In this document: positions 2,473 to 40,796 of the stretch, piece after piece
Position numbering within the stretch: position 1 is the first letter of the stretch
Layout: every line of letters begins with the position of its first letter
Source: Candidatus Hydrogenedens sp.
GTDB lineage: Bacteria; Hydrogenedentota; Hydrogenedentia; Hydrogenedentales; CAITNO01
Assembly: GCA_012522755.1 (NCBI GenBank)
Contig: JAAYJV010000107.1
Location: 1-44,153, forward strand
DNA: 44,153 nt
Direction: 5' to 3'
The notes under the pieces: generated by a model
Told to the model about the DNA's origin: nothing
Seen by the model: only the letters and a program-made list of their open reading frames with translations
Databases searched by the model: none
Made by a program: the position numbers and the translations under genes

Positions 2473-3780
2473 TCAGACGTCAAGACCCCGGGAAAGCACT
2501 TTTTCCGCTGCGTCCAGGGTACGTTCTATCACGGTCGTATCGTGGGCTTTGCTGATGAAAGCCGCTTCAAATTGTGAGGGTGCCCAATAGACCCCTTCTT
2601 CCATCATGGCGTGGAACCAGCGAGCATAGAAGGTCGTGTTCGACTTCTTGGCATCCTCATAATTCCTGACGGGTTCTTCCGTGAAAAAAGTACAGGCCAT
2701 GGTGCCCGCCCGGTTCTGCTGATAAGAAATTCCTTTTTGCTTCAACAGCTCGCCCAGCTCCGTACAGAGGGAAGTCAGCCTGTCGCACATCTTTTCAAAG
2801 ACCCCGGATTCGCCCAGAAGTTCCAATGTTTTCAAGCCTGCTGTCATGGCCACGGGATTTCCGGAAAGGGTGCCCGCCTGATAAACAGGGCCTTGCGGAG
2901 CAAGATGATCCATGATGGCTTTGCGACCTCCATAAGCGCCTACAGGCAACCCGCCGCCGATGACTTTGCCGAGAACGGTCAGATCAGGTGTTATGCCGAA
3001 GAGTCCCTGAGCACCTTCCAGAGCCACCCGGAAGCCGGTCATGACCTCATCAAAAATAAGCAGACAGCCCTCAGAGCGGGTGAGCTGTCGCAGAGCCTCC
3101 AGATAGCCCGGTTCAGGCGGAACAACGCCCATATTGCCCGCTACAGGCTCCAGAATGACCGCTGCAATTTCTCCCGGATAACGGGCGAAGATCTCCCGCA
3201 GATTTTCAATATTGTTGAAAGCTGCGATAATCGTGCTGGCCGTCACGGCTTCCGGTACTCCCGGCGAGTCGGGGAGTGCCAGAGTAGCCACTCCGCTGCC
3301 GGCCTTCGCCAGAAGGCCATCTGCATGACCGTGATAACAGCCATCCATTTTAATGATGAGATCACGGCCGGTATAACCCCGGGCCAGCCGTATGGCACTC
3401 ATGGTCGCTTCCGTGCCGCTGCTGACAAAACGCATCTGCTCCAGAGAAGGGATGAACGACTGGATTTTCCGTGCCAGCAGCGTTTCCGCTTCCGTGGGAG
3501 CGCCGAAGCCGAAGCCCCGGGCCGCCGCCTCACACACCGCCTGCACCACCTCTTCGCAGGCATGACCCAGAGCCAGCGGGCCCCAGGAAAGGACATAGTC
3601 CACATATTGGTTGCCATCCACGTCAATGAGAAAAGCACCTTTGCCTTCCTTGACGAAAAAGGGCGTGCCCCCTACGGATTTGAAGGAACGCACTGGGCTG
3701 TTCACACCACCGGGGAAGACTTCCCGTGCTTCAGTCCACAAGCTTTGAGAATGATCATGATTCATGGAAGACACTTTCAT
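2473..3780 (-). CDS. hemL: Glutamate-1-semialdehyde 2,1-aminomutase
   Basis: A PLP enzyme of the class III aminotransferase fold that converts glutamate-1-semialdehyde to 5-aminolevulinate in C5-pathway tetrapyrrole synthesis. Diagnostic stretches are FPGGVNSPVRSF near the N-terminus, SSGTEATMSAIRLARG for phosphate binding, YHGHADGLL, IFDEVMTGFR, and the PLP lysine in TVLGKVIGGGLPVGA (about K272). I chose the ATG at 3780 because it overlaps the hemB stop as ATGA, which implies translational coupling. An in-frame ATG twelve bases upstream and one at 3765 are alternatives. The gene follows hemB, the next enzyme of the pathway. Length and motifs are those of a complete, functional enzyme. Confidence 0.95.
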   Translation of the reverse strand: MKVSSMNHDHSQSLWTEAREVFPGGVNSPVRSFKSVGGTPFFVKEGKGAFLIDVDGNQYVDYVLSWGPLALGHACEEVVQAVCEAAARGFGFGAPTEAETLLARKIQSFIPSLEQMRFVSSGTEATMSAIRLARGYTGRDLIIKMDGCYHGHADGLLAKAGSGVATLALPDSPGVPEAVTASTIIAAFNNIENLREIFARYPGEIAAVILEPVAGNMGVVPPEPGYLEALRQLTRSEGCLLIFDEVMTGFRVALEGAQGLFGITPDLTVLGKVIGGGLPVGAYGGRKAIMDHLAPQGPVYQAGTLSGNPVAMTAGLKTLELLGESGVFEKMCDRLTSLCTELGELLKQKGISYQQNRAGTMACTFFTEEPVRNYEDAKKSNTTFYARWFHAMMEEGVYWAPSQFEAAFISKAHDTTVIERTLDAAEKVLSRGLDV

Positions 3781-4766
3781 CGCTGCAGCCATTTCGCCGC
3801 ATCCTGTGCAAAATAACTGATAATCAGCGAGGCACCGGCACGGTGTATGGCCGTTAAAATTTCGAGTACAGTCTGTTTTTCATCGAGCCAGCCCTGAGCC
3901 GCCGCCGCCTTTATCATGGCATATTCGCCGGAAACATTATAGGCCGCAATGGGTACTGAAAAGGTGTCGGCTGTCTGTCGGATGATATCCAGATAGGCGA
4001 GGGCGGGTTTGACCATGACGATATCCGCTCCTTCCTCCAGGTCCAGAGTGATTTCCCGCAAGGCTTCATTGGCATTGGCCGGATCCATCTGATAACTGCG
4101 CCGGTCACCGAAAGAGGGGGGAGACTCGGCCGCATCCCGGAAAGGCCCATAAAACGAGGAGGCATATTTGGCACTGTAGGCCATGATGGCGACCTCTTCG
4201 AAAGCCTCGGCATCCAGAGCGTCGCGGATGGCGCCGATGCGTCCATCCATCATGTCCGAGGGAGCGACCATATCAGCACCGGCCCGGGCATGAGCCAGAG
4301 CTTCACGGATCAACACTTCCACCGTCGCATCATTGTCCACGTCCCGTGTGCCCCGTCGCGTGTCTGCAATGATCCCGCAATGGCCATGGCTGGTATATTC
4401 GCAGAGGCATACATCGGTGATGACGCAGAGGTCGGGACAGCATTTTTTGATACGCTCGATACTTTTGCAGATGACCCCTTCCGGATCCCAGGCGGAAGAA
4501 CCTTCAGCATCCTTCTTTGAGGGGATACCGAAGAGCAGCACAGCCGGAATCCCCAGATCCTGAATCTTCCGGACTTCTTCTTCCAGTTCATAAAAACCCA
4601 GTTGATACTGTCCGGGCATGGAAGCGATGGGATGCCGTGCCTTTTCTTCTTCACGGACAAAGAGAGGGCTGATGAATTGATCAGCCGACAGCCGGGTTTC
4701 CCGGACCATCCGGCGAATGGCGGGGCTTTGCCGCAGTCTTCGCGGACGTTCAGGTAAAATCATCAT
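3777..4766 (-). CDS. hemB: Delta-aminolevulinic acid dehydratase (porphobilinogen synthase)
   Basis: Condenses two molecules of 5-aminolevulinate into porphobilinogen in the cytoplasm. Numbered from a TTG two codons upstream, the Schiff-base lysines sit in MAYSAKYASSFYGP (about K202) and VMVKPA (about K255). The zinc-type cysteine triad is visible as DVCLCEYTSHGHC (about C122, C124, C132), so this is the zinc-dependent class and not the magnesium-only type. The ATG at 4766 has GAAGG seven bases upstream, so I prefer it to the TTG at 4772. It lies 44 bp behind the amidase gene and overlaps hemL by four bases, so the two haem genes are coupled. Confidence 0.95.
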   Translation of the reverse strand: MMILPERPRRLRQSPAIRRMVRETRLSADQFISPLFVREEEKARHPIASMPGQYQLGFYELEEEVRKIQDLGIPAVLLFGIPSKKDAEGSSAWDPEGVICKSIERIKKCCPDLCVITDVCLCEYTSHGHCGIIADTRRGTRDVDNDATVEVLIREALAHARAGADMVAPSDMMDGRIGAIRDALDAEAFEEVAIMAYSAKYASSFYGPFRDAAESPPSFGDRRSYQMDPANANEALREITLDLEEGADIVMVKPALAYLDIIRQTADTFSVPIAAYNVSGEYAMIKAAAAQGWLDEKQTVLEILTAIHRAGASLIISYFAQDAAKWLQR

Positions 4767-14125: not shown

Positions 14126-15130
14126 GTGAACGAAAAGGATAGATTATTGGCGGCTCTGCATGCAGCCATATCGGAAGAATATGATCTGGGCCTGATCAGA
14201 CCCTTGCGCTATCTGGAAACCACCCACCAGCGGCGGCATAAAAAAATCGTTGTGGAGACGGAAAAGGGCGTTTTCCTGGCCAAAACCTATACAGACGATC
14301 TCGTTACTGTCGACTCCCTTTATTTTCAGCACAACCTTTCCGAATATCTCTTGAGCAACGGATTGCCCGTGGCACGCATACAGCGCACCCGTAATCAACA
14401 CAGTTTCATCAAACTCGCTGGGCTCGCCGTGGAATTGCAGCAATTTCTGCAGGGCCATCAAATGCCTGTAACACCGAAAACACTGCATATTTCAGGAATG
14501 TGTCTGGGGAAATTTCATCAGGTCTGTCAGGGCCGGCCTGCACCACCCAGAGATGCACGGAAATGGCGCTTCAGCGAAGTGCCCCGGGAAATTTTTCAAA
14601 ATTTTTATCAGCGCGCGCTGCAGGAAAGAAACGACCGGTTTATGCAGGAGAACTGTGACAAAATAGTCTCCTTTCTCGGAGAAGCCACCCAGGAACTGGC
14701 GGAAAACAAAAGAAACACCTTCGAAAGTGGAATTATCCACGGAGACTGGCACGGCGGCAACCTGCTCTTCACAGGAGAAGAGATTCAGGGTATTATTGAT
14801 CTTGAATATACCGGTGACGGTTGCTATCTCGAAGACCTCAGTTACGGGATTTCAAACTTGGGTATTCGTACTTCAACAAAAGAAGAAATTCTCGAATTTC
14901 GATGTGATACAATCCTGAATGCCTATGAGCAGTTTCGGACGCTTTCCTGGGGAGAAAATGTCGCCCTTTACTATGCGGCGGGAATCAAGCACATCACAAC
15001 GGTCGCTTTTCAACAGCCTTCACCGGAAGGAAAAATTGCCGGTTATACGCCCGCCCAGTGGCTGGAAATTTTAGTCGAACAGACCCGTTGGCTCGCCGAG
15101 CAGGCAAGAAGATCACGCTGGGGAAGCTAG
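14126..15130 (+). CDS. APH-fold small-molecule kinase (CotS/homoserine-kinase-II-like)
   Basis: A 334-residue phosphotransferase. The catalytic loop is HGDWHGGNLLF (H205, D207, N212), and the metal site is GIIDLEYTG (D225, E227) followed by YLEDLSYGISNLG. The N-lobe KKIVVETEKGVFLAKTY supplies the ATP lysine. This arrangement is shared by spore-coat CotS-type, choline and type-II homoserine kinases; I cannot choose among them. The GTG at 14126 is preceded by AAGGAT about twelve bases away; a nearby ATG at 14115 is out of frame. The gene stands alone, with an 860-bp gap after it. It is the second APH-type kinase in the window and is not closely similar to the first. Confidence 0.75.
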   Translation: MNEKDRLLAALHAAISEEYDLGLIRPLRYLETTHQRRHKKIVVETEKGVFLAKTYTDDLVTVDSLYFQHNLSEYLLSNGLPVARIQRTRNQHSFIKLAGLAVELQQFLQGHQMPVTPKTLHISGMCLGKFHQVCQGRPAPPRDARKWRFSEVPREIFQNFYQRALQERNDRFMQENCDKIVSFLGEATQELAENKRNTFESGIIHGDWHGGNLLFTGEEIQGIIDLEYTGDGCYLEDLSYGISNLGIRTSTKEEILEFRCDTILNAYEQFRTLSWGENVALYYAAGIKHITTVAFQQPSPEGKIAGYTPAQWLEILVEQTRWLAEQARRSRWGS

Positions 15131-15989: not shown

Positions 15990-17534
15990 TTAAGAGTTTG
16001 TGCGGGCTACCAGAGCATTCATTCGCTTAAAATGCTCTTGCAGTGATTGGTACACCGCCTGGAATTCTCTATGATAGTCGTCATAGATTACAGACTCTGC
16101 TTCCCGGGGATGGAGGACATCTTTTTCTTTGATCAGGGTATCGCAGGCCTCTTCCACGGATGAGAAGCATCCCGCCCCCACTCCCGCAAGAATGGCGGCG
16201 CCCAAAGCAGGACCCTCATCCACTTCCAGGCGCGCGATGGATACCCGGCCTGTGTCAGCCAGAATCTGACGCCAGAGGGTGCTTTGGGCACCGCCTCCGG
16301 AAGCTCTGGACAAGTTCAAGGGGACTCCCATATCCCGCATGATATCCAGGCTGTCACGCATGCCGTATGCCACGCCTTCCATCACGGCCCGAGCCATATG
16401 TCCTTTCGAGTGTCGAAGTGAGAATCCTGCAAATACTCCTTTTGCATCCGGGTCTTTGTGAGGAGTCCTTTCTCCTGTTAAATAGGGCAGGAAAAGCAGA
16501 CCTTCAGCACCGGGCCCCACTTCAGCCGCCGCTGCGGTGATGAGTTCATAAGGATCAATCCCTTTTTTTCTGGCCTCTTCCATTTCTTGCTGGCAGAAGA
16601 GTTTTCGGAACCATTGCAATGCTCCTCCTGCGCTGAGCATGACCCCCATGAGATGCCATTTCCCGGGTACGGCGTGACAGAAGGTATGCACCCTGCCCTT
16701 GGGATCTACCGTCACGGTATCGGCAAAGGCGAAGACAACGCCGCTGGTGCCCAGAGCCGAAGAAAGAGTTCCCGGCCGGACAATACCGCAGCCCACGCCA
16801 CCGGCCGCCTGGTCTCCCCCACCGGCCACAACTGGAATCCCAGCCGGCAACCCTGTTTTTTCAGCCATCGCTAAGGTCAAGGTGCCTGTTACTTCCGGAC
16901 CTTCAAAAGCGTCAGGCATCAAAGAATTGTCCAAGTCGAGTTTGGACATGAGGCCTTTATGCCAGCATCGGTTTTTTACATCAAACAAGAGGGTTCCTGA
17001 AGCATCGGAAACATCCGTGGCAAATTCACCTGTCAATACATACCGGATGTAATCCTTCGGAAGTAGCACTTTATCCAGACGCTCATATAAGTCCGGCTCT
17101 TCATCCCGGAACCATAGAATCTTCGGAGCGGTGAATCCTGTAAGTGCCGGATTGGACACCATTTCCACCAGAGCCGCCTCTCCCCCGGCTTTTTCTGTAA
17201 TACTTTCACATTGTGCAGCCGTGCGCTGATCACACCATAGCAAGGCCGGTCGCAGTACCCGGGCCTCTTTATCCAGAAATACACTGCCATGCATTTGTCC
17301 TGTGAGACCAATTGCTTTCACGGACAATCCGGAAGGAACGGCTGCAGCGAGGGCTGTCAAGGCGTCCAGGGAAGCATTTACCCAGTCCTGAGGATTCTGC
17401 TCGGCCCAGTTTGGCCTGGGGCTGGAAAGTGGATAAGAACGAAGCTCTCTTCCCACTACTGTCCCTGTTGCGTCAATTAAAAGGGCTTTGACACCGCTTG
17501 TACCGATATCCAGTCCGATGAGTAGGTCAGTCAT
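15990..17534 (-). CDS. xylB: Xylulokinase
   Basis: A 514-residue FGGY-family kinase that phosphorylates D-xylulose to xylulose 5-phosphate. The N-terminal ATPase motif is LLIGLDIGTSGVKALLID. GLTGQMHGSVFLD is the sugar-contact loop typical of xylulokinase, WCDQRT follows, and the catalytic aspartate is in VVAGGGDQAAGGVG. The second half has TSGVVFAF and LPYLTGERTPHKDP, and ASGGGAQSTLWRQILAD. The ATG at 17534 has AAAAGG upstream. The gene runs away from the SCP2-transketolase operon, from which it is split by 233 bp, and its product is the standard ketol donor for transketolase. No xylose isomerase or xylose transporter is beside it. Confidence 0.93.
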   Translation of the reverse strand: MTDLLIGLDIGTSGVKALLIDATGTVVGRELRSYPLSSPRPNWAEQNPQDWVNASLDALTALAAAVPSGLSVKAIGLTGQMHGSVFLDKEARVLRPALLWCDQRTAAQCESITEKAGGEAALVEMVSNPALTGFTAPKILWFRDEEPDLYERLDKVLLPKDYIRYVLTGEFATDVSDASGTLLFDVKNRCWHKGLMSKLDLDNSLMPDAFEGPEVTGTLTLAMAEKTGLPAGIPVVAGGGDQAAGGVGCGIVRPGTLSSALGTSGVVFAFADTVTVDPKGRVHTFCHAVPGKWHLMGVMLSAGGALQWFRKLFCQQEMEEARKKGIDPYELITAAAAEVGPGAEGLLFLPYLTGERTPHKDPDAKGVFAGFSLRHSKGHMARAVMEGVAYGMRDSLDIMRDMGVPLNLSRASGGGAQSTLWRQILADTGRVSIARLEVDEGPALGAAILAGVGAGCFSSVEEACDTLIKEKDVLHPREAESVIYDDYHREFQAVYQSLQEHFKRMNALVARTNS

Positions 17535-17767: not shown

Positions 17768-18529
17768 ATGATAGATCAGTTGAAATCCCGACTAAATCTC
17801 AAAGCCGTGTTACGTAATCTGGAGGTATTGCCAGCTCTGGATCCTGTCAGTGCGGAGCTTATTTCCGATTGGAATATTTCTCTTCGATTTTCCGTATGGC
17901 GGGATACACAGGTTGTTCTTGATTTTCACGATGGCCGCTGTGTTTTTCATTCCGACTCAAAAGAGAGCACTTCAGTGAACCTTTTTTTCTCTTCGCCTGC
18001 TCACCTGAACAACATGTTTGAGAATCAAGCCTCCCCCCTGCCCCTCAAAGGATTTACGAAGCTGGGTTTTCTCAAGAAAGAGTTTTCACAGTTGATTGGA
18101 CGCCTAGAATATTTTCTGAAACCCGCCGCCGAGACAGTGCAGGACGAAGCCTTCAAAAAGGTCAATCTGGCTCTTTCCCTGAATACAGCCGTATTTGCCA
18201 TTCCTGAACTGATGAAGCTTGATCCTGTGTCCCGCCGTATCGCTCCACAGTTTTCAGCGGGCAGCCTTCAGTTCTCAGTGGATCCCGACGGCCCCCATGC
18301 CCATATCATTTTTGATGGCCAGAGCAGGGCCGTTGCTTTTCCAGGCCCGGCTGTCAATCCCACAGCCATGACTGTTTTCAAAAACTCTGAAGTGGCCCAG
18401 GCGCTTGTCGCCGGTACTTTGGACAGTTTCGCAGCCGTGGCAACAGCAGATATTCAGCTTCGCGGCATGATTCCCCTCATTGACCACAGTAATGTGATTC
18501 TTGACCGACTTCCCTTATATTTACAGTAA
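17768..18529 (+). CDS. Tandem SCP2-like lipid-binding protein (first gene of operon)
   Basis: A 253-residue soluble protein that looks like two SCP2-type (sterol carrier protein 2) modules in a row. Module one spans about residues 30-120: ISLRFSVWRDTQVVLDFHDGR, then SVNLFFSSPAHLNNMFENQ. Module two spans about 150-250: AGSLQFSVDPDGPHAHIIFDG, TAMTVFKNSEVAQALVAGTLDSFAAVATADIQLRGMIPLIDHSN. Such folds bind lipids or acyl chains in a hydrophobic cavity. There is no signal peptide. The ATG at 17768 follows GGTGGAG by seven bases; a TTG nine codons upstream is less likely. It opens a five-gene run with 3-25 bp gaps. The ligand is unknown. Confidence 0.72.
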   Translation: MIDQLKSRLNLKAVLRNLEVLPALDPVSAELISDWNISLRFSVWRDTQVVLDFHDGRCVFHSDSKESTSVNLFFSSPAHLNNMFENQASPLPLKGFTKLGFLKKEFSQLIGRLEYFLKPAAETVQDEAFKKVNLALSLNTAVFAIPELMKLDPVSRRIAPQFSAGSLQFSVDPDGPHAHIIFDGQSRAVAFPGPAVNPTAMTVFKNSEVAQALVAGTLDSFAAVATADIQLRGMIPLIDHSNVILDRLPLYLQ

Positions 18530-18550
18530 GCATAATCCGGAGGAGTGCAG

Positions 18551-19795
18551 GTGAATATCTATCAGTATGATAAATCCAAGGAATGGTTTCAACGTGCCGT
18601 CAAGGTGATTCCCTGTGGGGTTTATGGACATTTCAGTCCCGCACCCTATGCACCTGTAGAGGCCTATCCTTTTTTCTCTGACAAAGCGGAGGGCGCTCGT
18701 TTCTGGGATGTGGATGGTAACGAGTTCATCGATTATATGTGCGCCTACGGTCCCATGGTACTCGGGTACCATCATCCTGAAGTTGAGGCCGCCTTTCAGA
18801 AACAGATCAGCATTTCCGATGCAAATACTGTCGCCTCCCCCCGCATGGTGGAACTGGCGGAATTCCTTTGCGAGATGATCCCGGTTGCTGACTGGGCTTT
18901 CTTCGCCCGTAATGGTGCTGACGTGACCAACATGGCGGTCATGGTGGCCCGTGCCGCGACGGGTCGGGACAAAATCATCGCGATCAAAGGCGGATATCAC
19001 GGCACGAGTCCCTGGATGCAGGCACCGGGACATCACGGAACCATAGCCGACGATCACGATCATCTTTTCCGTATTCCCTGGAATGATCTGGAGGCTTTGG
19101 ATCGTATCCTGGCTGAACATGGCTCTCAAATTGCCGCTTTCATGGCAAGTCCTTTCCATCACCCTATTTTTGAAGATAACGCTCTGCCCGCCGATGGATA
19201 CTGGCAACAGGTCGTGGATAAAATGCATGAAAACGGCAGTGTCGTCATTGTGGACGATGTCCGTGCCGGATTCAGGCTTCATATGGGCGGATCGAATGAA
19301 CATTATGGATTCAAGCCCGATATGATCGCCTTTTCCAAAGCCATCGCCAATGGCCATGCCCTTTCAGCCCTGGTGGGAACAGATGATTTGAAAGTGGATG
19401 CAGCCAAAGTCTTCCACACGGGAAGTTTCTGGTATTGTGCCGGCTCGTTTGCAGCTGCTCTGGCCTGTCTGAATATATTGAAAGCCGAGGATGGGCCCGC
19501 ACGCATGCGGATGCTGGGCGAAAAACTGACCGGAGGCCTGCGGGACCTGGCTTCGAGCCATGGCTATACCATGATTGTCTCCGGTGAACCAGCCTTGCCC
19601 TATCTGCGCCTTGCCGACGACGAGACACTCATGCTGCAACAGGCCTGGTGTGGCGAGTGTACCCGCCGGGGTGCTTTTTTCACCTCTCACCACAACTGGT
19701 TTTTGTCCACGGCTCATACAGAAGATGATATAGAAAAGACCCTGCAAATTGCCGATGAGGCTTTCAAAGCGGTTAAAAAACAGTTTGGAAGTTAA
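18551..19795 (+). CDS. Class III PLP aminotransferase (glutamate-1-semialdehyde aminomutase-like)
   Basis: A 414-residue fold-type I enzyme of the ornithine/GSA aminotransferase class. Seen in order: FWDVDGNEFIDYMCAYGPMVLGYHHPEV, FFARNGADVTNMAVMVARAATGR, GGYHGTSPWM, VVIVDDVRAGFRL (the aspartate that pairs with the PLP ring) and the Schiff-base lysine K263 in AFSKAIANGHALSALVG. It is clearly different from the true hemL of this window: the HemL PVRSF and GKVIGGGLPVGA signatures are replaced. Of two in-frame GTG codons I chose 18551, which has GGAGG seven bases upstream. It lies 21 bp after the SCP2-like gene and 25 bp before transketolase, so its keto substrate may come from transketolase. Substrate unknown. 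Confidence 0.85.
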   Translation: MNIYQYDKSKEWFQRAVKVIPCGVYGHFSPAPYAPVEAYPFFSDKAEGARFWDVDGNEFIDYMCAYGPMVLGYHHPEVEAAFQKQISISDANTVASPRMVELAEFLCEMIPVADWAFFARNGADVTNMAVMVARAATGRDKIIAIKGGYHGTSPWMQAPGHHGTIADDHDHLFRIPWNDLEALDRILAEHGSQIAAFMASPFHHPIFEDNALPADGYWQQVVDKMHENGSVVIVDDVRAGFRLHMGGSNEHYGFKPDMIAFSKAIANGHALSALVGTDDLKVDAAKVFHTGSFWYCAGSFAAALACLNILKAEDGPARMRMLGEKLTGGLRDLASSHGYTMIVSGEPALPYLRLADDETLMLQQAWCGECTRRGAFFTSHHNWFLSTAHTEDDIEKTLQIADEAFKAVKKQFGS

Positions 19796-19820
19796 ACAAT
19801 AACCTACGAGGAAGTTCATT

Positions 19821-20654
19821 ATGCCACTGACGGATCAGGAATTTGCTGAACTCACAGAGCGGGCCGCGTCCATTCGCTGCCAGATTGCCGATGTGACGGG
19901 ATGGTCAGGAGGTGCTCATATCGGCGGCTCCTTGAGTATGACCGATATCATTACGCTCCTTTACTGGAAATATCTGCGTATTGATCCGGCCCGGCCCGAC
20001 TGGGAAGATCGGGACCGCTTTGTATTGAGTAAAGGTCATGGCGGTGTGGGACATGCCGTGGTGCTTGCCGAACGCGGGTATTTTGACCGGGAAGCGCTCC
20101 GTTCATTCAACGAAACCGATTCCATGCTCGGCATGCATCTGGACAGCAACAAAGTGCCCGGATGCGACGCTTCCACCGGTTCCATGGGACATGGCCTTTC
20201 ACAGGCTGTGGGCATGGCGCTGGGTGCCCGGGTCCTGAAAAAAGAGTGGCGTGTCTTCTGTATCATCGGCGACGGTGAAAGCAATGAAGGTTCCATCTGG
20301 GAGGCGGCCATGTCAGCAGCCCATTACAAGCTGGACAATCTCATTGTCTTCCAGGATCGCAACCATCTCATGATCGACGGACCCACTGAAGATGTCATGA
20401 GCCTGGAGCCCCTGGCCGATAAGTGGCGTGCCTTCGGATTTGAAACAAGAGAAGTAAATGGCCATGATCTGCATGCCTTGTCCGAAGCCATTGAATTCGC
20501 CATTGATCATAAAGGATCACCTGTCATGCTGCTATGCGATACGATCAAAGGCAAGGGTGTCGAATTCATGGAAGGCAAGCCGGAGTGGCATTATGGCGGA
20601 TTGAATGCTGATCAAATCGCAAAAGCCAAAGCATCCATCAGAAGTGAGGACTAA
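19821..20654 (+). CDS. Transketolase, N-terminal (thiamine diphosphate) subunit
   Basis: The 277-residue half of a split transketolase. It carries the thiamine diphosphate motif GDGESNEGSIWEAA (G150-D151-G152, with N155) and the substrate-side histidines in SGGAHIGGSLSMTDI and SKGHGGVGHAV. ASTGSMGHGLSQAVGMALGARV and IKGKGVEFMEGKPEWHYG complete the family pattern. GAGGA lies nine bases before the ATG. Two-subunit transketolases are common in archaea and many bacteria and work as heterotetramers. Here the pair is embedded between an aminotransferase and an SCP2-like protein and not among pentose-phosphate genes, so a dedicated biosynthetic substrate is possible. Confidence 0.93.
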   Translation: MPLTDQEFAELTERAASIRCQIADVTGWSGGAHIGGSLSMTDIITLLYWKYLRIDPARPDWEDRDRFVLSKGHGGVGHAVVLAERGYFDREALRSFNETDSMLGMHLDSNKVPGCDASTGSMGHGLSQAVGMALGARVLKKEWRVFCIIGDGESNEGSIWEAAMSAAHYKLDNLIVFQDRNHLMIDGPTEDVMSLEPLADKWRAFGFETREVNGHDLHALSEAIEFAIDHKGSPVMLLCDTIKGKGVEFMEGKPEWHYGGLNADQIAKAKASIRSED

Positions 20655-20658
20655 AAAT

Positions 20659-21675
20659 ATGGAAACAGCCAGTACACTTACGTGGACCATTTATGACGCG
20701 GATAAAATGACGCAGCGCGAAATTTACGGAATCGTTCTGACGGACCTGGGCAAGCAGCATCCGGAGATTGTAGGGCTTTCGGCTGATCTGGCCAAGTCCA
20801 CAAAAATAGGGACTTTCGGAGATGCCTATCCCGACCGGTTTTTCAACTTCGGCATTGCGGAGCAGAACATGTTCGGTGCGGCCGCGGGACTGGCCAAGGC
20901 CGGATTGACTCCTTTTGTATCCACCATGTCCGCCTTTGCTTCCATGCGAGCCTGCGAATTCGTACGCACCGATATCTGTTATCAGAACCTCAATGTGAAA
21001 ATAATCGCCACTCATGGAGGCATGTCTTTCGGATCCGGAGGGGCCACCCACCATGCCAATGAAGACCTGTCCATCATCCGCGCCTTTCCCAATCTTACCG
21101 TGATCTGTCCGGCCGATACCATCGAGACAGCGATGGCTGTGAAAAAGTGCATGGAGATCACAGGGCCTGTCTATATCCGCATTGGCCGGGGATTTGAACC
21201 GCGGATCTATGAGTCCGAGGACTACGGCTTTGAAGTGGGCAAAGCCCACGAACTGCGTTCAGGTACGGATCTCACCATCCTGGCCACAGGCAACACCGTA
21301 TTCCACGCTGTCCAGGCTGCGGACATCATGCAGGAGCGGGACGGTCTCAGCGTCCGTGTGCTGAACATGCACACCTTGAAGCCTCTCGACGAAGAAGCCG
21401 TGATCCAGGCGCTTCTGGACACACGCCGTCTTCTTACAGTGGAAGATCACAGCGTCATTGGCGGTCTGGGCAGTGCTGTGGCTGATGTGATTGCCGCCAG
21501 TGGGAAAGGCTGCGCATTCAACAAGCTCGGTATTCCTGATACCTTCTGTCCCCATGGCAATCCCGAGGACCTCATGCATTTGTACAAAATAGATACAGAC
21601 GGTATCATCGAAAAAGTTGGCGAACTGATGCAACGCGACTTTGAAGAAGATGAAGACTGGGAAGATGAGGTGTAA
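20659..21675 (+). CDS. Transketolase, C-terminal subunit
   Basis: The partner half of the split transketolase, 338 residues. It contains the pyrimidine-binding domain with the catalytic glutamate E68 in FNFGIAEQNMFGAAAGLA, ATHGGMSFGSGGATHHANEDLSIIRAFPNLTVICPAD, and a C-terminal domain (ILATGNTVFHAVQAAD ... TVEDHSVIGGLGSAVADVIA). The ATG at 20659 is four bases past the stop of the N-subunit gene and has GTGAGGA in front. A longer in-frame reading back to 20605 would overlap the N-subunit and is unlikely. The tail ends in an acidic run (DFEEDEDWEDEV). It is tightly coupled to its partner on one side and the second SCP2-like gene on the other. Confidence 0.93.
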   Translation: METASTLTWTIYDADKMTQREIYGIVLTDLGKQHPEIVGLSADLAKSTKIGTFGDAYPDRFFNFGIAEQNMFGAAAGLAKAGLTPFVSTMSAFASMRACEFVRTDICYQNLNVKIIATHGGMSFGSGGATHHANEDLSIIRAFPNLTVICPADTIETAMAVKKCMEITGPVYIRIGRGFEPRIYESEDYGFEVGKAHELRSGTDLTILATGNTVFHAVQAADIMQERDGLSVRVLNMHTLKPLDEEAVIQALLDTRRLLTVEDHSVIGGLGSAVADVIAASGKGCAFNKLGIPDTFCPHGNPEDLMHLYKIDTDGIIEKVGELMQRDFEEDEDWEDEV

Positions 21676-21678
21676 TTC

Positions 21679-22470
21679 ATGACACTGACAAAAGAAGAAC
21701 TCACCAGCCGTCTGGTTTTCAATGCCGTACTGCCGGTAATCCGGGTCATGCTGGAAGATGATCCGGCCATGAAAAAACGTTTTGAGAAGACAACAGCCCA
21801 GGTTCAGTTTCAGGCAAAAGGCAAAGAAGGCCTGGTTGGCGCCAGCCTCTGCTTTGATCAGGGGACCTTTGCAGTCAATCAGGGCTTTGTCGAGAAACCC
21901 GACCTTGTTTTCTCCTTCAAGTCGCTCAAGGCCATGAATGACATGTTCCGAGGCAAGCCCGTGCTCCCGAGTCCGGGTCCCCTCCTCCCCGCCATGTTCA
22001 CGAAGCCGAGGCTGCTGAAAAATGTCTTCGCTGTACTTCTGGGCATGAAAATTCTGATGCCTGCATCCAAACCCAAAACGCCTGAAAAGGCTCATCTCAA
22101 GGTGAAGATGACCTTGTATATGGTTTCAACAGCCTTGAGCCAGATGAACAAAGCCGGTGATCCGGATATGCAGGCCTGGACGGAGAAACAGCCGGAACGT
22201 GTCTATCAATGGAGTGTTGACGGAACGGACATTGCCTGTTATCTGAGAGTCAAAGCGGGAAAAAGCAAAGCCGGCCGTGGTGTGTATAAGGGTCGCAAAC
22301 CCTTTGTACACATGATTTTCAAAAGTGTTGACGCGGCCCTTCCCGTCTTGGGCAATACCATCGACACCGTATCCGCCATCGGTCAGGGACTTGTGTTCAG
22401 CGATGGATCACCGGAATATGGAGGTCGACTGGGTGATTTCATGATGAAGGTGGCCAATCTGCTTTCTTGA
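21679..22470 (+). CDS. Second tandem SCP2-like lipid-binding protein (last gene of operon)
   Basis: 263 residues, again with two SCP2-like modules. Module one (about 35-105): VQFQAKGKEGLVGASLCFDQG and PDLVFSFKSLKAMNDMFRGKPVLPSPGP. Module two (about 165-260): YQWSVDGTDIACYLRVKAGKSK and KPFVHMIFKSVDAALPVLG, closing with FSDGSPEYGGRLGDFMMKVANLL. The pattern 'acidic residue - aromatic - K/N-S - A - small-helix' recurs in both modules and in the first gene of the operon. No signal peptide. GAGGTG seven bases upstream lies inside the end of the transketolase gene, so translation is coupled. Which lipid it binds cannot be told. Confidence 0.72.
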   Translation: MTLTKEELTSRLVFNAVLPVIRVMLEDDPAMKKRFEKTTAQVQFQAKGKEGLVGASLCFDQGTFAVNQGFVEKPDLVFSFKSLKAMNDMFRGKPVLPSPGPLLPAMFTKPRLLKNVFAVLLGMKILMPASKPKTPEKAHLKVKMTLYMVSTALSQMNKAGDPDMQAWTEKQPERVYQWSVDGTDIACYLRVKAGKSKAGRGVYKGRKPFVHMIFKSVDAALPVLGNTIDTVSAIGQGLVFSDGSPEYGGRLGDFMMKVANLLS

Positions 22471-22591: not shown

Positions 22592-23479
22592 TCATGGATC
22601 CACTACATAATCAGCATAGCTATAAGAAGGTATGCCTCTGTATTTAAGGAAATCCTGAATTTCACTTGTGTCACGGAAATCATTCTCTTTAAGCAATGGC
22701 AAGTATTGCTCAAGCAATTCAGCCAAATCAGATGTTGGATGTTCCTGCACAATTTGTTGATATGCTTCAAGCACTTTTTGCAAGTCTTCTCTATCATAAT
22801 CATCAAGTATGTATGACTCAGAATGCAGGACTCTTGATTGTGAAAGCCCTACAAGAAATGTGCTTAAATATATTTTTTGAAGTTCCCTTATTTCACTCAA
22901 CAATGGGGTCTTTGGAAAACGCTTGTTATGGTTCTCCCAATCAAGGCATCTTTTTCCCAGTTCCTCCCAGGTAATTTTTAGACTGCGATCATGTTGGAAT
23001 TGTTTTCTTTGTTCTTTTGCACGAATAGACAAAAAATCCAAAATGCACGGTGAGACATAATCTGTAAAATGTTTTTCAAGAAATGCACAGGATACTGTAG
23101 CGATGTCACCCCACTCGGCGGAAACTGTCTTCAGTCCGTATTCATATTCTGATTGTAATAGATATTGATTTGTTTCATCATTAATGCAATATTCGTTATA
23201 TAAGTTTATCGTATCAACAAAATAACGATAAAACACTGCGAACTGCTTGTCCCGTATGTTCTGTTCCAAGTTCGAAGAATTTGTTTTAAATGTCCCTATC
23301 ATTAACTGAATATCTAAAATAGAATTCAGAATACGCTCACATATCATTTCATCCATGTTTGAAACTGATTTTGGATCACTTGATATATCTGTTTTTTCTT
23401 CTGGAAAGCACCCGTATTGATAAAGCAAACAATAGCCTGTCAATATAAGAGTGAAAAATTTAGATCTGACTTTCATCAT
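22592..23479 (-). CDS. Putative lipoprotein of unknown function
   Basis: I do not recognise this 295-residue protein. The ATG at 23479 is preceded by GAGG with five bases between. The N-terminus MMKVRSKFFTLILTGYCLLYQYGC looks like a lipoprotein signal with a cysteine at about 24, though QYGC is a poor lipobox. The rest is acidic and mostly helical, with scattered cysteines and no repeat or catalytic motif I can name. Base composition is much richer in A+T than that of the neighbours and codon choice differs (many AAA, ATA, TTT), suggesting acquisition. It faces the SCP2 operon, with 121 bp between the ends. Confidence 0.6.
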   Translation of the reverse strand: MMKVRSKFFTLILTGYCLLYQYGCFPEEKTDISSDPKSVSNMDEMICERILNSILDIQLMIGTFKTNSSNLEQNIRDKQFAVFYRYFVDTINLYNEYCINDETNQYLLQSEYEYGLKTVSAEWGDIATVSCAFLEKHFTDYVSPCILDFLSIRAKEQRKQFQHDRSLKITWEELGKRCLDWENHNKRFPKTPLLSEIRELQKIYLSTFLVGLSQSRVLHSESYILDDYDREDLQKVLEAYQQIVQEHPTSDLAELLEQYLPLLKENDFRDTSEIQDFLKYRGIPSYSYADYVVDP

Positions 23480-23543
23480 AATAACCTCATTGGTATTGGC
23501 TGTCACAATCACATTCATCGCTCGGTATTTGCTTTGCCAAGTA

Positions 23544-39779: not shown

Positions 39780-40796
39780 ATGATTGAACTTCGCAGTGAT
39801 ACCTTTACCCAGCCTTCAGCAGGCATGCGTCAGGCAATGGCCGAAGCTGAAGTGGGTGATGACGTTTACGGTGAAGATCCCACAGTCCGGGCTCTGGAAG
39901 CAAAAGCCGCTCAATTAATGGGTAAAGAGTCGGCTCTCTTTCTTCCGACAGGTACCATGGCGAATCTCGTTGCTTTTCTGGCACAGACACGTCCCGGCGA
40001 CAGCATAATCTTGAGTGAAACGGCCCATCCATTTTTATATGAAAACGCCAATCTTGCCATGGTGGCCGGGCTCTTGACGCGAACCATCGCTGACTCTCTC
40101 GGAAAGTTTAATACAGATCAGCTCCGTGAGCGGATCGTGCGTAAAAATGATCCACACCTTTCTCAGACAACGCTGGTATCCATCGAAAACACGACCAACT
40201 GTGGCGGAGGAGCTTGTTGGGAATATCACGAATGTGAAGCCATTGCCGCCCTGTGCAGAGATCAGGGCATGAAGCTCCATTGTGATGGTGCCCGGCTTTT
40301 CCACGCCTGCGCAGTGACCAATATTCAACCGCATATCTATGCACGTTGTTGCGATACGCTTTCTTTTTGTCTGTCCAAAGGCCTGGGGGCTCCGGCGGGT
40401 TCCCTGCTCACCGGTGACAGTGAGACAATCAAAAAAGCCCTTCGCTTTCGTAAAATGCTCGGTGGTGGCATGCGCCAGTCAGGTATCCTGGCTGCAGCAG
40501 GCTTGTATGCACTGGAACATCATCTCCCCCATCTGGCGGAAGATCATCGCCGTGCTCGCGAATTCCGCCGTGCCCTGGAAGAAGCCGGAGTGAAATTCGC
40601 ATTGCCTTCGCCTACAAACATCCTTTATCTTCAGTGTGATGATGCCCCGACAAAAGTCAGGATGCTTGCGGAAAAAGGGATCCGCGTTCTCGCCCGGGAC
40701 TCGGATCTCATGCGTATTGTCTTTCACAGAGATATAACAGATGAAATGCTTGCCGAGGCCATCGAAGGCTTCAAGCAGGTATTGATTCCGACGTGA
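39780..40796 (+). CDS. ltaE: Low-specificity L-threonine aldolase
   Basis: 338 residues of PLP fold-type I. RSDTFTQPSAGMRQAMAEAEVGDDVYGEDPTV is the family opening; H83 (TAHPF) stacks on PLP, D169 (LHCDGARLFHA) contacts the ring nitrogen and K200 (FCLSKGLGAPAG) is the Schiff-base lysine. It would split threonine or allo-threonine into glycine and acetaldehyde. The ATG at 39780 has no clear ribosome site, so it is probably coupled to the lipoprotein gene before it. Complete. Confidence 0.93.
   Translation: MIELRSDTFTQPSAGMRQAMAEAEVGDDVYGEDPTVRALEAKAAQLMGKESALFLPTGTMANLVAFLAQTRPGDSIILSETAHPFLYENANLAMVAGLLTRTIADSLGKFNTDQLRERIVRKNDPHLSQTTLVSIENTTNCGGGACWEYHECEAIAALCRDQGMKLHCDGARLFHACAVTNIQPHIYARCCDTLSFCLSKGLGAPAGSLLTGDSETIKKALRFRKMLGGGMRQSGILAAAGLYALEHHLPHLAEDHRRAREFRRALEEAGVKFALPSPTNILYLQCDDAPTKVRMLAEKGIRVLARDSDLMRIVFHRDITDEMLAEAIEGFKQVLIPT

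Follow-up and report, generated by a model that had tools for sequence, protein, structure and literature searches.

A five-gene operon and its conservation

We analyzed a stretch of 44,153 nucleotides (the window) from Candidatus Hydrogenedens sp. (Candidatus Hydrogenedentota; contig JAAYJV010000107.1 of a 4.0 Mb assembly), in which five intact open reading frames, free of internal stops, occupy positions 17768-22470 of the plus strand. They encode, in this order, an SCP2-fold protein (SCPa), a class III pyridoxal phosphate (PLP) aminotransferase (AT), the two halves of a split transketolase (TkN and TkC) and a second SCP2-fold protein (SCPb), with gaps of 21, 25, 4 and 3 bp between them (Table 1). 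An earlier note on this DNA had described five same-strand genes with gaps of 3-25 bp and a two-subunit transketolase; both statements hold, the Pfam domains of both transketolase halves scoring above cut-off. Two GTG codons could serve as the start of AT, of which the one at 18551 matches the Shine-Dalgarno sequence and the relatives of AT better than the one upstream at 18545. Counting from GTG 18551, the PLP lysine is K263, and with TkC starting at ATG 20659, the catalytic glutamate is E68, both as that note had numbered them.

Table 1 Features of the operon and its divergent neighbor, in window coordinates.
Feature	Position	Strand	Evidence
SCPa, tandem SCP2-fold protein, module 1 with AT	17768..18529	+	253 aa; Pfam SCP2 19.2 bits; AlphaFold; Foldseek
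AT, class III PLP aminotransferase, FumI kin	18551..19795	+	Pfam Aminotran_3; PDB profile match 6hbs
TkN, thiamine diphosphate (ThDP)-binding half of split transketolase	19821..20654	+	Pfam Transketolase_N; best match 6yak
TkC, pyrimidine-binding and C-terminal half of split transketolase	20659..21675	+	Pfam Transket_pyr and Transketolase_C
Acidic C-terminal tail of TkC, FEEDEDWEDEV, possible docking motif	21640..21672	+	
SCPb, tandem SCP2-fold protein, module 2 with transketolase	21679..22470	+	Pfam SCP2 21.8 bits; AlphaFold; Foldseek
Xylulokinase, divergent neighbor	15990..17534	-	TIGR01312 576 bits (cut-off 380)

An alignment search for AT orthologues in the named genome collection gave 320 relatives, and gene neighborhoods were analyzed for the best 80. 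The order SCPa-AT-TkN-TkC-SCPb, on one strand, is found in 50 of these best 80, and such a fixed order indicates that the grouping is not due to chance. Exactly five genes make up 49 of the full operons, the other (L098) having an extra transketolase fragment in front, and most of the remaining 30 relatives are cut by contig ends. Full operons are present in Hydrogenedentota, Desulfobacterota (Desulfatibacillum, Desulfoluna), Spirochaetota, Myxococcota, Bacteroidota (Draconibacterium, Carboxylicivirga), Thermoleophilia and Bacillota (Lutispora). The earlier note had let its proposal depend on whether this gene order is conserved elsewhere, and the order is indeed kept across several phyla.

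Within Hydrogenedentota, a TkC orthologue was found in 30 of 68 genomes; all 30 also have an AT orthologue, and no genome of the 68 has TkC without AT. In four Spirochaetota genomes, SCPa-AT and TkN-TkC-SCPb lie at separate sites, each intact, SCPb thus remaining with the transketolase where the operon splits. The operon should therefore be considered as two modules, each consisting of an enzyme and its own tandem SCP2 protein. In a metagenome-assembled Desulfococcus genome that has no TkC orthologue, SCPa-AT and a shortened SCPb are found with no transketolase in between (L080, 7265-9652). Among open-access papers, we found no description of the five-gene operon or of this combination of families. 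The operon is thus real, widespread and apparently undescribed; each of its proteins belongs to a known family, and it is the combination that appears to be new.

Enzyme kinship, active-site changes and SCP2 folds

When the AT profile was compared with solved structures, the best match was the aminopentol aminotransferase FumI (PDB 6hbs, 383 bits), followed by glutamate-1-semialdehyde (GSA) aminomutase (211 bits), and AT shares 41% identity with FumI as opposed to 28% with E. coli HemL. AT falls well short of the HemL/GSA models (TIGR00713, 204.6 bits against a cut-off of 527.3; NF000818, 218.6 against 398), and the guanitoxin transaminase GntE was likewise rejected (235 bits against a curated cut-off of 525). 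The enzyme, which had earlier been called GSA-type, is thus better described as FumI-type. The substrate of FumI, hydrolyzed fumonisin B1, is a sphinganine analogue. FumI transfers its C2 amino group onto pyruvate, yielding alanine (PMC2933618).

Not all relatives of AT have these partners. In a sister clade from Pseudomonadales/Pseudohongiella and in L108, neither transketolase nor SCP2 genes adjoin AT, and these genomes have no TkC orthologue. The Pseudomonadales/Pseudohongiella loci of this clade include L116, L125, L126, L128, L133 and L134; in L125, AT is preceded by an apparent POT-type peptide transporter, and an open reading frame of the same sequence cluster lies upstream in several of the sister loci. 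Three plasmid relatives of AT that were examined have no adjoining transketolase or SCP2 gene. The window itself holds a second class III aminotransferase gene (2473-3792, minus strand; Aminotran_3, 246 bits), 14 kb upstream of the operon.

For the transketolase, 52 TkC and 56 TkN sequences were aligned together with E. coli TktA, the numbering of which is used here. The ThDP-binding and pyrimidine/C-terminal domains, the catalytic glutamate and the catalytic histidine set expected of a split transketolase are all present. All operon transketolases keep Glu411 and His473 as well as S385, H461 and R520 of the phosphate site; equivalents of H26, H66 and H100 are found in all, and H261 is found in 55 of 56, the remaining sequence having a gap. 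Asp469 and Arg91, the canonical marks of pentose-phosphate transketolases that serve in recognizing alpha-hydroxy aldehydes, are however replaced. At position 469, 49 of the 52 TkC have Ala and the other 3, the window's among them, have Gly (codon 21037-21039); at position 91, 55 of the 56 TkN have Asn (window codon 20109-20111). In addition, L466 is replaced by Phe in all operon TkC, and R358 by Ala in 32, while Arg is retained in 15 and mostly so in Hydrogenedentota.

Full-length transketolases encoded elsewhere in operon-carrying genomes all keep R91 and D469 (12 of 12), which argues that the operon transketolase has changed its aldehyde. In the E. coli enzyme, D469 hydrogen-bonds H26 and R91 (PMC3657141; PMC5073344). 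Its D469A and D469T variants were more active with propionaldehyde, and linear aliphatic aldehydes were among the substrates of several D469 mutants (PMC3657141). The natural change at D469 is thus the one that engineers made towards aliphatic aldehydes.

An acidic tail ends TkC in the window, and related forms of it occur in all 52 TkC orthologues listed; it is absent from 10 other split transketolases and from the chain of Carboxydothermus. This tail could dock on a basic stretch of SCPb, LRVKAGKTKAGRG.Y.RRRPFVHMKF, which is strongly conserved in the alignment of orthologues. As for other transketolases, no canonical full-length enzyme was found alongside the operon in Hydrogenedentota; the window's genome encodes a divergent, full-length transketolase-like protein of 640 aa (contig C77; L138 916-2835, minus strand; 213.5 bits against a cut-off of 575) that is perhaps its housekeeping transketolase. 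A different split transketolase, with Tyr at the D469 position, lies near two aminotransferases and an SDR on a Phaeobacter plasmid (L242, 1536-5888).

By sequence, the SCP2 match is marginal, SCPa scoring below and SCPb above the Pfam cut-off (PF02036, 21.3 bits). In the AlphaFold models, the mean predicted local distance difference test (pLDDT) is 93.2 for SCPa, with a predicted template modeling score (pTM) of 0.90, and 92.8 for SCPb, and the best Foldseek matches of both models are SCP2 proteins, at a probability of 1.00. The secondary structure of these predicted folds confirms that each protein consists of tandem SCP2 domains, and so bears out what had been described from the sequence as two tandem SCP2-like proteins. 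The SCPa family occurs once per genome, the other matches being SCPb, and in the 21 carrier genomes examined, tandem-SCP2 proteins are restricted to the operon. SCPb had no match in the plasmid collection. Given the fold, SCPa and SCPb may carry lipids.

Candidate pathways and the evidence for each

Three independent clues, namely the FumI kinship of AT, the loss of D469 and R91 and the tandem SCP2 folds, point at long-chain 2-amino-1,3-diols. The function we favor, tentatively and at somewhat less than even confidence, is a two-step interconversion of a long-chain 2-amino-1,3-diol, such as sphinganine, and a long-chain aldehyde, breakdown being the most likely direction. AT, served by SCPa, would pass the 2-amino group to pyruvate, yielding alanine and a 1,3-dihydroxy-2-ketone. 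The ThDP of TkN and TkC, served by SCPb, would then attack this ketone and free a fatty aldehyde, and the two-carbon ketol would be handed to a sugar-phosphate aldehyde. Where the respective enzymes are present, alanine dehydrogenase would regenerate pyruvate and an ALDH3-type dehydrogenase would oxidize the fatty aldehyde to a fatty acid. Function, including the substrate chain and the direction, is what we infer from these clues and from the neighboring genes.

Several of these neighbors are of catabolic type. Alanine dehydrogenase adjoins six Desulfobacterota loci, three of which were scanned and score above the curated cut-off (L096, L087 and L080) and three of which were assigned by sequence cluster (L079, L093 and L099); in L096 the gene lies directly 5' of SCPa on the same strand. 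In Draconibacterium (L112), about 60 bp 3' of SCPb, there is an aldehyde dehydrogenase whose solved kin include human fatty aldehyde dehydrogenase (ALDH3/FALDH-type), and members of the same cluster also adjoin L092 and L109. A FadL/TodX-type porin is found 3' of SCPb in L098, and TetR regulators (cluster c4) adjoin 17 loci. Together, these neighbors favor a role in taking up and degrading a long-chain amino alcohol, and from them we consider breakdown likelier than synthesis, with modest confidence.

The 2-amino-1,3-diol pathway of the earlier note thus keeps its dedicated operon, its lipid-carrier folds and its combined chemistry, the last being strengthened by the FumI kinship and by the loss of D469 and R91, while the few conserved neighbors suit its synthetic direction less well than they suit breakdown.

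Certain observations weigh against breakdown of a sphingoid base and should be considered when referring to this proposal. Fewer than half of the loci have such catabolic-type neighbors, and within Hydrogenedentota no neighbor of this kind is shared beyond close genera. Loss of D469 and R91 is not unique to the operon, since 6 of 10 other split transketolases, whose substrates are undescribed, lack these residues as well; the change thus marks a shifted aldehyde and not one particular substrate. The nearest relatives of FumI adjoin peptide-type ABC transporters or dehydrogenases, so this family is not exclusively lipid-directed. Ceramidase gives only weak matches in nearly every genome, a distribution that lends the proposal no support. 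In several Hydrogenedentota families, the operon is found in nearly every genome, which also suits a core biosynthetic role. Synthesis would be suited as well by the xylulokinase gene next to the operon, seen also in L055 and, 3' of SCPb, in L056; it is a possible supplier of xylulose 5-phosphate, although the association is weak, being confined to two genera of the window's family.

Synthesis is accordingly the first alternative to be weighed, and we regard it as unlikely though worth serious attention. Here, the transketolase would join a fatty aldehyde to a two-carbon ketol taken from xylulose 5-phosphate (or from hydroxypyruvate), and AT would aminate the resulting 1,3-dihydroxy-2-ketone with alanine as amino donor, so that sphinganine-like bases would arise with no need for serine palmitoyltransferase. 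Either reaction is in principle reversible, alanine dehydrogenase could equally supply alanine, and the xylulokinase neighbor and the near-universal presence in some families would fit. The serine palmitoyltransferase (alpha-oxoamine synthase) superfamily gave no match at E 1e-10 in the window's genome, with control genomes positive, and none in Desulfatibacillum alkenivorans; no enzyme of the serine-palmitoyltransferase family was matched in most operon-bearing Hydrogenedentota genomes. The few superfamily matches in this phylum include, however, a true serine palmitoyltransferase in a genome that also has the operon (G050), and the operon is thus not simply its replacement. A complementary distribution of the two was not seen; for a sphingoid base made without serine palmitoyltransferase, as had been proposed, speaks the lack of such enzymes in most carriers of the phylum, and against it their coexistence with the operon in G050. 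A direction of synthesis is also opposed by the ALDH3-type dehydrogenase and FadL-type neighbors, and although conserved acyl reductases and acyltransferases had been suggested as a check, no recurrent acyl reductase, N-acyltransferase or head-group gene was found beside the operon. In its boldest form, the claim would be that mostly uncultured bacteria of several phyla produce sphingoid bases by a natural transketolase-transaminase route that dispenses with serine palmitoyltransferase, each enzyme being supplied by a tandem SCP2 carrier of its own; this we hold to be rather improbable. A second superfamily match in Draconibacterium (L171, 1501-2646) is close to cysteate C-fatty acyltransferase, an enzyme of sulfonolipid synthesis.

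A different lipid could also be the substrate: the SCP2 proteins would then present another lipid-attached, non-hydroxylated aldehyde or ketone, belonging to a polyol or amino lipid instead of a sphingoid base. Loss of D469 and R91 says only that the usual recognition of alpha-hydroxy aldehydes is gone, FumI kinship leaves the chain unfixed, and the tandem SCP2 folds suit any such lipid, so that this alternative, while doubtful, has to be kept in mind. Its hopanoid version, an aminated hopanoid having been among the options of the earlier note, is disfavored: squalene-hopene cyclase was matched in eight Hydrogenedentota genomes, none of which bears the operon.

Less probable still is a pathway of small amino sugars or aminopolyols in which the SCP2-fold proteins would act as scaffolds and not as lipid binders. 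The weak SCP2 sequence match would fit such a role, as would the retention of most phosphate-site residues in the transketolase and the occurrence of other split transketolases near aminotransferases on plasmids. Yet D469 and R91 persist in the full-length transketolases that operon carriers also encode, so that the operon enzyme has changed its aldehyde, FumI is the nearest solved kin of AT, and no nucleotide-sugar, glycosyltransferase or sugar-modifying gene was found to recur beside the operon. Finally, an ordinary pentose-phosphate transketolase caught in an operon with unrelated genes, which the lack of a canonical full-length enzyme among Hydrogenedentota findings and the mostly retained R358 there might suggest, is very improbable, as the gene order is fixed across phyla, 12 genomes of other phyla have a separate full-length enzyme with R91 and D469 intact, and TkC is absent from every AT-free Hydrogenedentota genome.

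Other genes near the operon were noted as well. A small VOC (glyoxalase-fold) gene lies 3' of the operon in Lutispora (L132, 12284-12799) and in two Spirochaetota (L114, 12118; L121, 9380). In the window, an APH-type kinase with weak homoserine-kinase-like similarity (14126-15130, plus strand) also has a counterpart beside the operon in the sister genome L055; directly after the operon is an open reading frame of 308 aa with no Pfam or NCBIfam match (22592-23518, minus strand), and at 39780-40796 (plus strand) there is a PLP enzyme of the beta-eliminating lyase/threonine-aldolase type.

Comparison with known systems

The best solved relative of both transketolase halves is the split transketolase of Carboxydothermus hydrogenoformans (PDB 6yak, 6yaj), which likewise consists of two chains and accepts bulky aldehydes but, unlike the operon enzyme, keeps R91 and D469 and has no acidic tail. 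AT resembles FumI of Sphingopyxis (PDB 6hbs, 6hbv) over its whole length and in its class III fold. With pyruvate as amino acceptor, FumI deaminates a long-chain 2-amino-3-ol, the type of reaction that, by analogy, is proposed for AT, although the substrate of FumI is a 1-deoxy compound. FumI is a member of a fumonisin catabolic cluster and, to our knowledge, its reaction involves neither a transketolase nor an SCP2 protein. The SCP2 fold is shared with proteins of the UbiJ/UbiT type, UbiJ being among the Foldseek matches of SCPa and SCPb. Proteins of this type have a single SCP2 domain and belong to the quinone pathway, whereas the domains of SCPa and SCPb are in tandem and each protein is tied to one enzyme.

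With the established routes of synthesis (serine palmitoyltransferase) and breakdown (sphingosine-1-phosphate lyase), the proposed pathway would share the sphingoid base and the fatty aldehyde; we know of no use of a transketolase or a class III aminotransferase in either. Bacterial sphingoid-base metabolism is also represented by sphBCD of Pseudomonas aeruginosa, which comprises a periplasmic cytochrome c, an oxidase and a predicted PLP aldolase and has no family in common with the operon (PMC11893366). The 2025 study of sphBC leaves open whether these proteins act on sphingosine itself (PMC11893366). This field of metabolism is poorly known in bacteria. The proposed breakdown, if true, would mean that several bacterial phyla process sphingoid bases without serine palmitoyltransferase or sphingosine-1-phosphate lyase, and the operon is a candidate source of natural transketolases for long-chain aldehydes.

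A further parallel in chemistry is an engineered one. In the laboratory, transketolase-transaminase cascades yield 2-amino-1,3-diols from short or aromatic aldehydes. When the transketolase is a D469 variant, the two reactions are the same and the same residue is altered as in the operon; if our reading is true, both the enzyme pairing and the D469 change, which engineers brought about by hand, have also evolved in nature. Unlike the laboratory cascade, however, the operon naturally encodes both enzymes together, along with predicted lipid-carrier folds.

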